NCBI GenBank assembly: GCA_024742875.1
Contig: JANSXP010000009.1
Span: 1-64,000 of the forward strand
Reading direction: 5' to 3'
Source: Planctomycetaceae bacterium
GTDB taxonomy: Bacteria; Planctomycetota; Planctomycetia; Planctomycetales; Planctomycetaceae
DNA: 64,000 bases
In this document: piece by piece, positions 56,457 through 63,284 of the stretch
How positions within the stretch are numbered: position 1 is the first letter of the stretch
Layout: each line of letters opens with the position of its first letter
The notes under the pieces: model-generated
Database searches by the model: none
What the model saw: the letters and a program-made list of their open reading frames with translations, nothing else
Told to the model about the DNA's origin: nothing
Program-made: the position numbers and the translations under genes

Positions 56457-57140
56457 TCACTCACGTGAAGCGGCAGCTCTTGCCTCCAATGAACTGCGTC
56501 GGCGAACGATACAGCAGGCAACGGCGAGCAAAGCCGCCATGACACCGAACTGCCCAGGCTCTGGCACAGCCGTCATCTGGTTCCTGTAAAAGCCGCTTTG
56601 ACTGGCATCCCCGGTGTCCAGAATGTGCACCTTTGCTCGCAGGGTGCTGTCCCCTTGCACTCCCAGGTCAAAGGAAGAGACAAGCAGTTTTTCGGAGTCG
56701 TGATCAATGAGAATCCGGCTCACCTCATCCGCACTGAACTTGTCGTGGGCCGAAGTTCGATACTCCACGCCCAGATCAAACCTGCCCACACCGTGTCGGG
56801 GCCCCACACGATCTTCTTTCTGCTCAAACTTCTTGACCGAAGGGCCTGACATGGCGGTGAAGCTCAGGTCGTCGATCGAGACGCCCGCCTGAAAGAAGTT
56901 GAAAAACAGACTCTTCAGCTTGTCGGTGTTTGTGGGCATCCCCGCCGTATCGACAGTCAGCTCCACGGCATTTCCCTCGGCACGCTGCTGAAATCGAATG
57001 CTGACGGCATCGTCTGGAATTTCTGCGCCTGATTCTGTAACGGGCGCACCGCCGATCTGAAAAATCAGATCGTCAGCAAGCGCCACATCAGTGACCAGGA
57101 GCAGGCAGGGCATTAGAAGCCGTCGTGGAAAATGATTCAC
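56457..57140 (-). CDS. PEP-CTERM sorting-domain protein
   Basis: C-terminus AVPEPGQFGVMAALLAVACCIVRRR; GTG 57140 gives VNHFPRRLLMPCLLLVTDVALADD leader. ORF to 57236 would overlap the putative promoter. Confidence 0.78.
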   Translation of the reverse strand: MNHFPRRLLMPCLLLVTDVALADDLIFQIGGAPVTESGAEIPDDAVSIRFQQRAEGNAVELTVDTAGMPTNTDKLKSLFFNFFQAGVSIDDLSFTAMSGPSVKKFEQKEDRVGPRHGVGRFDLGVEYRTSAHDKFSADEVSRILIDHDSEKLLVSSFDLGVQGDSTLRAKVHILDTGDASQSGFYRNQMTAVPEPGQFGVMAALLAVACCIVRRRSSLEARAAASRE

Positions 57141-57220
57141 AGCAGGGTTCTTTTCGGGGATGACAGGCAGGTGATGCTGGCGGTTACGCTTGCACGCCGC
57201 TCGCGTTGGGACTTCTGCAC

Positions 57221-57304: not shown

Positions 57305-57346
57305 GCCCCCCTGTAGAGTTTTCCGTGGCCAGACCGCCCCCCTGTA
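57305..57346. repeat. Two identical 11-mers GCCCCCCTGTA at 57305-57315 and 57336-57346 (31-bp spacing), candidate activator sites
   Basis: Direct reading; located between the two opposed sigma54-like promoters. Confidence 0.55.
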
Positions 57347-57399
57347 ACATTTACTGCGGGAATGTCGCAGGGGCGGCCGGAACAGACGGACCGAGCGAA

Positions 57400-57414
57400 T
57401 GGCACACGGGTTGC
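57400..57414 (+). promoter_or_regulatory. Sigma54 (-24/-12) promoter TGGCAC-acggg-TTGC
   Basis: Matches TGGCAC-N5-TTGC exactly; 39 bp between its end and the ATG at 57454; gaggt precedes the ATG. Confidence 0.75.
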
Positions 57415-57453
57415 GGAGGGAGAACCGCCCACCGTTCCTTCTTCGAGGTACTC

Positions 57454-58326
57454 ATGAAACGTTCTTTCTTTCCCGCCGCACTGATGGTGCCGCTCATCGC
57501 AATTCCGATTGCCATAGCGTCCACCGCCAGCGCTGCCGGCGATGTGATGGCTGCGCCACCGTCACCTGACTGGGGATCGCTGTCGGTCACCGCCCCCGTA
57601 TTTCCTCCATCCGTCAGGCAGGAACGTATCCAGAAGCGACGACTGCCCCGCCCGGCGGGCGCTCCAGCGGAGTCTTCGCTTGCCGTCTCGCCGGCCCCGC
57701 CAGTACGACTCAACCGCCTGTCGACTCCCGCCAACATCACGCAATCGGCAGGCCAGGTCACTACGTGGTTTGCTGCAGGGATCTGCAGTCTGCTGGCAAT
57801 TGTTGTCGCGTTATTGATTGACGCACTGCGCCCCGCTCCGTCGGACAAACGTCTGACACTTACACCGGATGACACCCAGCTTCCGTCTCTCACTCCCACC
57901 GCCGTCGCCGTGGAGCAGTCGGCTGCCGATGCAAACGAACTCTCGACAGCAAACGACAGGGCTCCGCAGCGACCTCCCAGAATCTACCGCTTCGATCCTC
58001 AGGTTCTGACGACCGCAGATGGCGCGTCCGTACTGGTGACATGCCGCCTGATCGTGGAACGTCCCCCGGGAGCCGTGCAGTCAATGCCGGATGCGAATGT
58101 CTTTTCCTGGTATCTTCGCTGGGCGGTCAGTACGTCGAACAGCACACAGGCTCAGTCGTCCGAGGATCACGTGAGCAAACAAATGATGCGACTGGCCGAG
58201 GCGGAATTTCTGCTCAAGGGCATCGTCATCCGGACCATTCAAACCACCGTGACAGCCGTCGCCTCATCCCGTCCGTCCACCCCCGTCCATCCCGAGCAGA
58301 TGATCAAGGAACTATGCGCAAACTGA
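57454..58326 (+). CDS. Hypothetical membrane protein, first gene of putative sigma54 operon
   Basis: MKRSFFPAALMVPLIAIPIAIASTASAAG leader; TM TTWFAAGICSLLAIVVALLIDAL; no recognised domain. Confidence 0.7.
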   Translation: MKRSFFPAALMVPLIAIPIAIASTASAAGDVMAAPPSPDWGSLSVTAPVFPPSVRQERIQKRRLPRPAGAPAESSLAVSPAPPVRLNRLSTPANITQSAGQVTTWFAAGICSLLAIVVALLIDALRPAPSDKRLTLTPDDTQLPSLTPTAVAVEQSAADANELSTANDRAPQRPPRIYRFDPQVLTTADGASVLVTCRLIVERPPGAVQSMPDANVFSWYLRWAVSTSNSTQAQSSEDHVSKQMMRLAEAEFLLKGIVIRTIQTTVTAVASSRPSTPVHPEQMIKELCAN

Positions 58327-59087: not shown

Positions 59088-59275
59088 ACGTTGGATTTTT
59101 GCACCCATGATGCCGTTTGCAGACTTTGTGTGTCGCTTCGTATCCGGTCGACCTTTGCTCCTCTGCCAAACGTGCAGCAATCAGCTTGATCCTCAAGAAA
59201 ATGGTGGAAAACCCCCACAATACTCCTTGGCAGTTTCTGATGCGTTCTACGCTTCTATCAGACAAGGAGTACGAT

Positions 59276-60649
59276 GTGATCAGCCATTCCGAAGCCGAGA
59301 CGGTGTTCATCATTGATGACGATCCCGTCATTCGTACGACATTCTGCAAGTCACTGGAAGATGCTGGATTTCAGGTCCATGCATTCGCCGACGCGGAAAG
59401 CGCGCTACTGCAAATGACCGACTCTGTGGCCGCTGTCCTGCTGGACCTGCGTCTGCCGCAGACTCAGGGACTGCAGTGTCTGAAACTCCTGCGGCGACAG
59501 TTTCCCGACACGTGCGTGATCGTCGTCAGCGGTTCAGCTGACGTGGGGGATATCGTGAGCTCCATGAAGGGCGGAGCGGTCAACTACCTGCGCAAGCCGG
59601 TGGATGCAGGGGAAATGGTCCAGGCGACCGTCGCGGCCCTCCAGGATCATTCATCAAGGCACGGCGCAGCGTTGACAGATTTGAGCGCCTCCTCTCCCGA
59701 AGAACTGCTGATTGGGCCCGCCCTGCTGTCCGACATGGGGCAGGCCGCCAAACTGAATTCCAGTGTCTTCCTTATGGGCGAAAGCGGCACGGGAAAAACG
59801 CTGGCCGCAAACTGGATTCACAATCGCAGTCCGCGGGCCGATTTTCGCATGGTCTCGCTGAACTGCGCGGCGCTTCCCCATGAGCTGGCGGAATCGGAAT
59901 TGTTCGGCCACACGAAGGGTGCGTTCACAGGAGCCGATCGCCATCGGCCGGGCAAAGTGGAACATGCTGACCGCGGGACGCTGTTCCTCGATGAGATTGG
60001 CGACCTGCCTCTCGCCGTGCAGCCCAAACTGCTCACCTTTCTGCAGGATCGCCGTGCCTCCCGTGTGGGAAGCAATGACGCCTACTCGTGCGATGTTCGC
60101 ATTATCTGCGCGACACATCGCAACCTTGCCAGCATGTGCGAGCAGGGAGAATTTCGGGAAGACCTCTACTATCGTCTGAATGTGCTTCCGGTCCACCTCC
60201 CGCCACTGCGTGAACGTCACGAGGAACTCGCCGGTATCTGTCGGATTCTGATCGCCCGAATCTGTCGGCGGTTTCAGTGCCGGGAACCGTTCCTGAGTGA
60301 TCCGGCGCTGCACATGCTGACCAGACACAACTGGCCGGGGAACATTCGCGAACTGGAAAACGTGCTTGAGCGAGCTGTGGCCTTCCTCCGCGGTGATGTC
60401 ATCGAGCACACCGACATTCGCATTCTTTCCGCCAATCGCAATGACGACAGCCCTCGCCCGTCGAGTGCGGCGGCTGGTGTCCGGACTTTGGTGGAACTTG
60501 AGCGTCAGGCGATTATTGACGCCCTGAACCAGTTCGGGGGCAACAAAGCGCAGACCGCTCGTGAACTGGGGATCAGTGAGAAGTCCATCTACAACAAGAT
60601 GAAGCGGCTGGGAATTCGCGCCGGCTCTACTTCCAGCGACAGTCGCTAA
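59276..60649 (+). CDS. NtrC-family sigma54-dependent response regulator (REC-AAA-Fis HTH)
   Basis: REC FIIDDDP...LLDLRLPQ...RKPVDAGEM; AAA GESGTGKT, ELFGHTKGAFTGADRHRPGKVEHADRGTLFLDEIGDLP; HTH NKAQTARELGISEKSIYNKMKRLGI. GTG 59276 with aaggag 6-7 nt upstream. Confidence 0.95.
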   Translation: MISHSEAETVFIIDDDPVIRTTFCKSLEDAGFQVHAFADAESALLQMTDSVAAVLLDLRLPQTQGLQCLKLLRRQFPDTCVIVVSGSADVGDIVSSMKGGAVNYLRKPVDAGEMVQATVAALQDHSSRHGAALTDLSASSPEELLIGPALLSDMGQAAKLNSSVFLMGESGTGKTLAANWIHNRSPRADFRMVSLNCAALPHELAESELFGHTKGAFTGADRHRPGKVEHADRGTLFLDEIGDLPLAVQPKLLTFLQDRRASRVGSNDAYSCDVRIICATHRNLASMCEQGEFREDLYYRLNVLPVHLPPLRERHEELAGICRILIARICRRFQCREPFLSDPALHMLTRHNWPGNIRELENVLERAVAFLRGDVIEHTDIRILSANRNDDSPRPSSAAAGVRTLVELERQAIIDALNQFGGNKAQTARELGISEKSIYNKMKRLGIRAGSTSSDSR

Positions 60650-60668: not shown

Positions 60669-63284
60669 ATGGACGTTCCCTCCTCCCCGGCAACCGGTGA
60701 CACTTTGGCGCTGCAGACGCGATACAGGACGCTTATGGAAAGCTGTCCGGACCCCGTGCTGATCATCGACAGGAACGGAGGGCTTCTCGAATCCAGCCGC
60801 TCCGCCACAGACCTGTTTGGCGGGGCGGGCGGCAGCGTGCCGGTTGACGATGTCCGCGAACTGTTCGACGAATTCCCGCTGGAACAGACCCTCAGACAGA
60901 CTGACGACCAGCCGGTCGTCCAGCATGTGACAGCGCGTGATTCCCGCCGCAACACTTTTCCCGCTCGGATTCAGATTTCACGCGCCGCGGGCAATGGTCA
61001 GCCTTTCTGGATTGTGCATGTGCGAAATCTGACCGACCTGCAGTCCAGTCAGGCCGATCTGTTCGCTGCACGGGAGGCGTGGGCGCAGTGCTTTAACGCG
61101 CTGCCCGACCACATTTGCCTGCTCGATCTCACCGGCGCCATCCTCAAGGCCAATACGTCGATGAAGAATCGCTTTGAGCCAACTCACGGTCCGCTTGAGG
61201 GTGTCGACTACCGGCTCATCTACTGTGGCACGGCCACCCCCGACCCACAGCCACCATGCGCGGCCGTCCTGTGCGGAGGGCCTTCTGTCACTCTCGAGAC
61301 CGCACTGCCCGCTGTCCCCGGCTGGTTTGTTGTCTCCAGTTATCCCCTGCACAACTCCGCCGGTGAACTCTGGGGCGCGGTTTCGGTCGTGAAAGATGTG
61401 ACGGAAAGACGTCAGGCACAACTTGACCTGGACCGCCTGTTTGAAACGTCGATTGATGCCTGCTGCATTATGGAACGCAACACGCAGCTGAAACGGGTCA
61501 ATCAATCGTTCTGTGAGTCGTTCGGGATACCGAAAGACTGCGAACCACACAGCCTCCTGGAACTGGTTCACCCGGATGATGCGCTGGAAACCCGGCAGCG
61601 ACTGGAACGTCTGGAAGCGGGAGTCGAAATTCGCGGGTATCGCATTCGGTGCATGACGAATTCCGGAGAGTACCGCTGGTTTTCGTGGAGCATTCCGCCG
61701 GCAACTCCTGAGGAGTCTGCGGTGTGCGCCATTGGCCGAGATGTGACGGAACTGGAGTTGAGCGAGCAGCTGCTGAGGGTGGCCAGGCAGAAGGCTGAAG
61801 ATGCCAATGCGGCCAAGTCACAGTTCCTGGCGACCGTCAGCCACGAAATGCGGACTCCACTGCACGCAATCAACGGAGCACTGGAACTGATTGTGACGGC
61901 ATCAGACTCAGATGACGGTCTGCTTCAGACATGTCAGGAATCAGCCACCTCACTGCGTCGGCTGATCGACGACATTCTCGACTGCTCTCAGATGGAATCC
62001 GGGCACCTGCGGCTGAAGAACGCTCCGCTGCTGATCCGGGATGTCGTGGACCAGTGTGTGCGCAGATTCGCAAAGGCGGCGGACGCAGCGGGCATCAGGA
62101 TTGATGCGATCATTGATGAGTCGGTCCCCGAAAGCGTGCAGGGGGATGCCGAACGCCTGATTCAGGTTTTGACAAACCTGCTTTCCAATTCCCTGAAGTT
62201 CACCACCCAGGGAAGCGTTTCTCTGGCTGTCCGACTGGAACACAGATCCAGGGATCGATGTCGACTGTGTTTTGAAGTCATCGACACCGGAGTGGGCATT
62301 CATCCCGACCACAAAGATCGCATCTTCCGGATATTTCAGCAGGCGGACAATTCCATGCATCGCCCCGCCGGTGGGCTGGGGCTGGGGCTGTGGATCAGCC
62401 GTCGCATCGTCGAATCGATGAAAGGCACAATCGACGTCGAGAGTCAGCCGGACAGAGGCACGCATTTTCGGGTGGAACTGCCGTTTCGCATCATCGCTCC
62501 GCCGCATCCGGATCTGTCACCGGACAGCGATCACGCCGCGAGAAGAAGGCTGCGCATTCTGCTGGCAGACGATGACCGCGTGGGCGCGCGCATCACACGT
62601 GCGATGCTCGAATACCGTCACCACACCGTCGACTATTTCCCTGACGGCCGGTCTGTCTTGACAGCGATGTCGCAGAATGACGCGCATTATGATCTGATCC
62701 TGATGGACCTGATGATGCCTGAAATCGACGGCATACAGACGACTCAGCAGATTCGCCGTGGCGTTGAAAAATTTCGCAGCATTCCCATTTTGGCGGTGAG
62801 CGCTCATGCGATGCCGGATGCCGCCGGACTGTGCCGGCGGGCCGGCATCAACGGCTATCTGGCCAAACCATTCTCGCGCAGGCAGCTTGAAGACGCCATG
62901 GGAGCCGTCCTGAGCATCGGGACCACCACCGAACAGCCGGCTGTCGACCGACAGGAACTGCTCCAAAGGTGCAACGGAGACATCGCACTGATCAATTCAC
63001 TAACGGACATTTTTGAGCAGGCCGCATCCGGAGACGTCACGACCATCCGTCAGGCCCTTGAAGACAGAGACCATGAACAGATTCGCGCGGTCTCACATCG
63101 GCTGAAGGGAACACTGCAGCACCTGTGCGCCCACCAGGCGGCACTTGTAATCGTGCAGATTTCAGAGCTGAGCCTCAGCGACCGTGCGAAATCCGAACAG
63201 CTGCTTCAGGATCTGGAACTTCAGATCGCACGCATTGGCGAGGAGTTGCGGTCTGTCAGCAGTGTGCCGACAGACTGTCCCTAA
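60669..63284 (+). CDS. Hybrid sensor histidine kinase (multiple PAS, HisKA, HATPase_c, REC, HPt)
   Basis: H-box FLATVSHEMRTPLHAINGALELI; VLTNLLSNSLKFT; GGLGLGLWISRRIVESMKG; REC LLADDDRVG...LILMDLMMPEIDG; HPt VSHRLKGTLQHL. Confidence 0.95.
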   Translation: MDVPSSPATGDTLALQTRYRTLMESCPDPVLIIDRNGGLLESSRSATDLFGGAGGSVPVDDVRELFDEFPLEQTLRQTDDQPVVQHVTARDSRRNTFPARIQISRAAGNGQPFWIVHVRNLTDLQSSQADLFAAREAWAQCFNALPDHICLLDLTGAILKANTSMKNRFEPTHGPLEGVDYRLIYCGTATPDPQPPCAAVLCGGPSVTLETALPAVPGWFVVSSYPLHNSAGELWGAVSVVKDVTERRQAQLDLDRLFETSIDACCIMERNTQLKRVNQSFCESFGIPKDCEPHSLLELVHPDDALETRQRLERLEAGVEIRGYRIRCMTNSGEYRWFSWSIPPATPEESAVCAIGRDVTELELSEQLLRVARQKAEDANAAKSQFLATVSHEMRTPLHAINGALELIVTASDSDDGLLQTCQESATSLRRLIDDILDCSQMESGHLRLKNAPLLIRDVVDQCVRRFAKAADAAGIRIDAIIDESVPESVQGDAERLIQVLTNLLSNSLKFTTQGSVSLAVRLEHRSRDRCRLCFEVIDTGVGIHPDHKDRIFRIFQQADNSMHRPAGGLGLGLWISRRIVESMKGTIDVESQPDRGTHFRVELPFRIIAPPHPDLSPDSDHAARRRLRILLADDDRVGARITRAMLEYRHHTVDYFPDGRSVLTAMSQNDAHYDLILMDLMMPEIDGIQTTQQIRRGVEKFRSIPILAVSAHAMPDAAGLCRRAGINGYLAKPFSRRQLEDAMGAVLSIGTTTEQPAVDRQELLQRCNGDIALINSLTDIFEQAASGDVTTIRQALEDRDHEQIRAVSHRLKGTLQHLCAHQAALVIVQISELSLSDRAKSEQLLQDLELQIARIGEELRSVSSVPTDCP

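Follow-up and report, generated by a model that had tools for sequence, protein, structure and literature searches.

Does the exact sigma-54 core upstream of two genes in the window, the 64-kb stretch of planctomycete DNA that was analysed, mark a working promoter, and does the NtrC-type regulator encoded behind these genes act on it? The reading that we favour, with a probability of roughly 0.55, is that a sigma-54 promoter serves genes A and B, that the local regulator is its activator and that read-through into the regulator and kinase genes provides feedback. The features concerned, in coordinates of the window, are as follows.

56457–57141, minus strand: divergent gene with a PEP-CTERM-like tail (PF07589, E = 0.026, below the cut-off)
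57305–57328, plus strand: extra half-site copy GCCCCCCTGTAGAGTTT, a direct repeat 75% identical to 57336–57359
57339–57373: candidate activator-binding dyad CCCCTGTAACATT-N9-AATGTCGCAGGGG, an inverted repeat with 11 of 13 positions paired, with its centre near −70 relative to the predicted start site
57400–57414, plus strand: sigma-54 −24/−12 promoter element TGGCACACGGGTTGC, zero mismatches to TGGCACN5TTGC
57454–58326, plus strand: gene A, 290 aa, with an N-terminal signal-like hydrophobic segment and one internal hydrophobic helix
58314–59087, plus strand: gene B, 257 aa, membrane anchor and repeated beta-strand domain
59088–59275, plus strand: gap between gene B and the regulator gene, 188 nt, 48% G+C
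59276–60649, plus strand: NtrC-type response regulator with REC, AAA+ and Fis-type HTH domains
60669–63284, plus strand: hybrid histidine kinase with PAS, HisKA, HATPase, REC and Hpt domains

The earlier note had described the element as a −24/−12 match with exact GG/GC spacing, and this was confirmed for the core, in which GG and GC are separated by ten bases. The extended sigma-54 consensus has G after TGGCAC and A or T after TTGC; at 57400–57414 these outer positions hold A and G, and the word perfect therefore applies to the core. When both strands of the window were scanned, TGGCACACGGGTTGC was the sole exact match to TGGCACN5TTGC, and matches with up to two mismatches were found at chance level (83 observed versus 91 expected). 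The element sits inside a 312-bp divergent intergenic region and is codirectional with gene A. The predicted start site near 57426, the Shine-Dalgarno-like GAGG (57445–57448) and the ATG at 57454, 28 nt beyond the predicted start, all lie where they had previously been placed.

The whole genome (8.18 Mb in 168 contigs, planctomycete-like in its gene content) was scanned with the same consensus, which occurs 34 times, versus 20 occurrences of the reversed pattern. All 54 sites were placed with a gene finder, a codon-phase Markov model trained on the long ORFs of this genome; it leaves gene A uncalled and may overlook further genes, and the true and reversed sets were handled alike. Outside predicted genes lay 25 of the 34 true matches versus 2 of the 20 reversed controls (Fisher p = 1.1e-5), and leaving out five copies in one dispersed repeat gave 20/29 versus 2/20 (p = 4e-5). 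At 7 of the 20 non-repeat, non-coding sites a codirectional ORF of at least 100 aa with a Shine-Dalgarno-like start begins 5–100 nt past the predicted start site, versus 5.7% of random positions. One exact match precedes a PII (glnB/glnK) gene (L035), which starts 80 nt past the predicted start site; PII genes are textbook sigma-54 targets. Further exact matches precede a class-I fructose-1,6-bisphosphatase-like gene (L146) and a glycosyltransferase-like gene (L053), all three gene names having been assigned by inspecting the sequence rather than by family searches. RpoN is encoded in the genome (DNA-binding domain PF04552, E = 3.3e-63, G000:C50). Because of the enrichment outside genes, the site at the PII gene, the excess of downstream ORFs and the presence of rpoN, the promoter reading is strong; together with the neighbouring activator gene, they uphold the previous assignment to sigma-54. 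We consider it very likely that 57400–57414 is a functional sigma-54 promoter.

The genes behind this promoter are new. The start of gene B overlaps the end of gene A by 13 nt, and the two are very probably coupled. Gene A has a weak coding score, yet the highest of the six frames over its length. It has no Pfam or NCBIfam match and no homologue in 39 relatives, apart from two marginal class-level matches; among 170 family genomes, a single marginal match (E = 6e-4), with internal stops, was found besides gene A itself. Gene B likewise belongs to no curated Pfam or NCBIfam family and has no homologue besides itself in the 170 family genomes at E ≤ 1e-3. A search of 84,980 species genomes returned no match to either gene. 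Thus, A and B are lineage-specific membrane-anchored proteins without a family match. Neither gene offers an orthologue for phylogenetic footprinting of the promoter, which counts against the favoured reading. The C-terminal region of the gene A product has a strand-strand-strand-helix order. Its single-sequence structure model is of low confidence (pLDDT 54), and a remote Band-7-like C-terminus, suspected from the sequence, was dropped with so poor a model. In the model of the gene B product, a membrane anchor is followed by successive beta strands, with pLDDT mostly 75–88 over residues 70–240, and the solved structures that it matches best, all at low TM-scores (about 0.2–0.5; 0.3–0.5 for single-layer sheets such as OspA), are OspA variants with a single-layer sheet and Rhs-type repeats. 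This model suggests at most an envelope-exposed repeat domain. Gene B is weakly similar to repeat proteins of other planctomycete families. Anchored proteins of this kind, with repeats of the form LxLxDxxGxxRxxLGxxxxGxPxL, were seen at L102–L105 (G024), L099, L100 and L101; one class-level relative has several of them, and in others the repeats stand behind coiled-coil-like N-termini.

The regulator carries all domains of a sigma-54 activator (Pfam Response_reg, 8e-22; Sigma54_activat, 1.3e-63; HTH_8, 1.8e-13) and the motifs GESGTGKT and FLDEIGD. The GAFTGA motif that the earlier note had reported two genes downstream of the promoter was found at 59918–59935. The regulator most likely starts at the GTG at 59276, after AAGGAG. 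It scores below the curated cut-offs of PrsR (TIGR02915, 343.4 bits, cut-off 502.6), NtrC (TIGR01818, 359 bits, cut-off 558.6), ZraR (NF007689, 325 bits, cut-off 760) and also AtoC. The kinase, too, falls short of the cut-offs of all curated NCBIfam kinase families among the matches listed. On paper, regulator and kinase would make up a complete phosphorelay.

An inverted repeat upstream of the promoter offers a candidate site for this regulator. Taken alone the dyad is weak, since an equally good one arises in 13 of 300 dinucleotide shuffles of the 258-bp region (about 4%). The pattern of its symmetric core occurs once in the genome, even when three mismatches are allowed, which fits a dedicated local regulator. 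Activator sites are usually placed at least 100 bp from the promoter (PMC4641369), and the centre of this dyad lies nearer. The extra half-site copy is situated 31 bp upstream of the left copy, the one that makes up a dyad arm. Elsewhere in the genome, close copies of the half-site lie mostly in sequence that appears to be coding and have no exact sigma-54 core close by, and none was found in a comparable promoter setting. From these sequence features we infer that the dyad is a candidate site bound by the downstream regulator.

Whether the regulator gene is reached from the same promoter depends on the gap behind gene B. A consensus scan of its plus strand found no intrinsic terminator and no sigma-70-type promoter, a second sigma-54 site was not present between 58900 and 59290, and the gap folds no better than its shuffles. 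The lack of such signals in the gap and the one-off dyad at about −70 favour autoregulation, which the earlier note had suggested and which is plausible. Against a single operon, the gap is richer in A+T than its surroundings (genes B, regulator and kinase have about 59–63% G+C) and could hold a separate promoter. Co-transcription of regulator and kinase from 57400–57414 is thus put forward tentatively, at somewhat short of even odds.

The following course of events is proposed. The sigma-54 promoter would transcribe genes A and B. The adjacent hybrid kinase would phosphorylate the regulator through a His-Asp-His-Asp relay ending on Asp57 of the REC domain, and the phosphorylated regulator would bind the dyad, its AAA+ ring opening the sigma-54 polymerase via the GAFTGA loop. 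Read-through over the 188-nt gap would also transcribe regulator and kinase, closing a positive feedback. That the downstream NtrC-type regulator activates this promoter is, in our judgement, probable.

The closest regulator-kinase pair belongs to a second species of the genus (G006:C269). Here the kinase PAS region is 75% identical and the regulator 58% identical over the aligned part. This pair has neither A nor B and no sigma-54 site upstream, which indicates that regulator and kinase form an evolutionary unit separate from A and B. A TATAAT sequence lies just upstream of its regulator gene. This regulator gene (L068:943–2327) is split into two ORFs at about 1443–1455 by a frameshift, which could reflect either a genuine interruption or a mistake in the assembly. 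Among the kinase relatives (nine loci in eight genomes), the regulator is adjacent in G006:C269 only; the remaining ones have other regulators or a very long protein as neighbours. Regulator homologues of 46–57% identity (L003–L008) were considered as carriers of A and B and rejected, their neighbourhoods being unrelated and containing neither gene. One homologue of 57% identity (L062:5216–7975, G006:C27) directly precedes a gene that looks SPFH-type by sequence.

Three other accounts of the locus have to be weighed. The adjacent regulator may activate the promoter for A and B only, with regulator and kinase using a housekeeping promoter in the gap and no feedback. Both the low G+C content of the gap relative to the flanking genes and the G006 pair, which stands alone behind its TATAAT, speak for this arrangement, but the consensus scan of the gap revealed no sigma-70-type site and no plus-strand terminator follows gene B; we hold it to be unlikely, though of some weight. 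Alternatively, the match at 57400–57414 could be a chance occurrence and gene A be transcribed by another sigma factor. The reversed pattern does arise about 20 times per genome by chance. Such matches, however, are almost all located inside genes (18/20), and with 20 reversed matches in 2 x 8.18 Mb the probability of a chance match is about 4e-4 per 312-bp upstream strand, which makes this account very improbable.

The remaining account accepts the promoter and assigns it to another sigma-54 regulator, or places the divergent gene and A-B in a PrsK/PrsR-like regulon. The local regulator has matches at about 40 further places in the genome, any of which could encode the activator, and TIGR02915 (PrsR) ranks among its top NCBIfam matches. 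The divergent gene product has a visible VPEP-hydrophobic-RRR tail, and RpoN-dependent PEP-CTERM genes are known (PMC9850573). The locus resembles PrsK-PrsR regulation (PMC9850573) in its sigma-54 promoter, its NtrC-type regulator and the PEP-CTERM-like gene nearby. Unlike that system, the regulator here is far under the PrsR cut-off (343 versus 503 bits), and PrsK is not among the best kinase matches listed. Moreover, the weak sigma-54-like site TGGTATGGCCATTGC upstream of the divergent gene (57235–57221, minus strand) belongs to a class found at chance frequency, and a dyad unique in the genome fits a local activator. A foreign activator thus appears improbable. If the TGGTATGGCCATTGC site were real, the dyad could serve both directions.

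Returning to activation by the local regulator with read-through feedback, the regulatory design is familiar and ordinary in kind, as comparable designs have been reported (PMC12316311, PMC4641369); the cargo genes A and B are new. Planctomycetota are reported to be one of several phyla in which NtrC-family regulator genes with a predicted sigma-54 promoter are enriched, and feedback has been proposed for these genes (PMC12316311). The Planctomycetota cases, COG2204 ZraR-like regulator genes, have in common with the present locus the phylum and a sigma-54 promoter ahead of a regulator of this kind (PMC12316311). At the present locus, in contrast, it is two lineage-specific membrane-protein genes that follow the promoter, and the kinase is of the hybrid phosphorelay type with PAS domains. 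In Desulfovibrio, the activator operons of DVU1949 and DVU2894 are predicted to be autoregulated (PMC4641369). There, too, an activator is predicted to control the operon or gene that encodes it, in one instance along with a hypothetical gene, from a motif upstream; those predictions rest on motifs conserved across orthologues (PMC4641369), whereas A and B have no orthologues. In NmpRSTU of Myxococcus xanthus an NtrC-type regulator is likewise clustered with sensor kinases (PMC6211767). Its sensor, however, has a protoglobin and its targets concern type IV pili (PMC6211767), and the kinase found here, a single PAS hybrid with Hpt, is built differently.

The locus supports a concrete set of sigma-54 promoters in a planctomycete lineage that is rich in sigma-54 activators and has few known targets, and it provides a regulator and a promoter that can be tested as a compact pair, with a specific candidate site for binding. 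In a stricter version, the PAS hybrid kinase and the NtrC-type regulator would be a dedicated relay serving one promoter genome-wide, that controlling A and B. We find this version doubtful. If it were true, two lineage-specific envelope proteins, one of them bearing a repeat domain of the single-layer-sheet type, might in turn act on the kinase as feedback.

Two further observations concern the other core matches in the genome. Three exact cores in one orientation lie within 8 kb (L051, L052 and L053; G000:C117 at 74984, 78201 and 82665), a group that looks like a sigma-54 regulon cluster; the glycosyltransferase at L053 resembles a sucrose-synthase relative. In addition, a dispersed repeat (...CGCTATCGACAACCGAGG-TGGCACCGCGCTTGC-CGCGAGCCGCGGCGG...) includes a match to the sigma-54 core at five or more loci (L037, L050, L054, L058 and L059).
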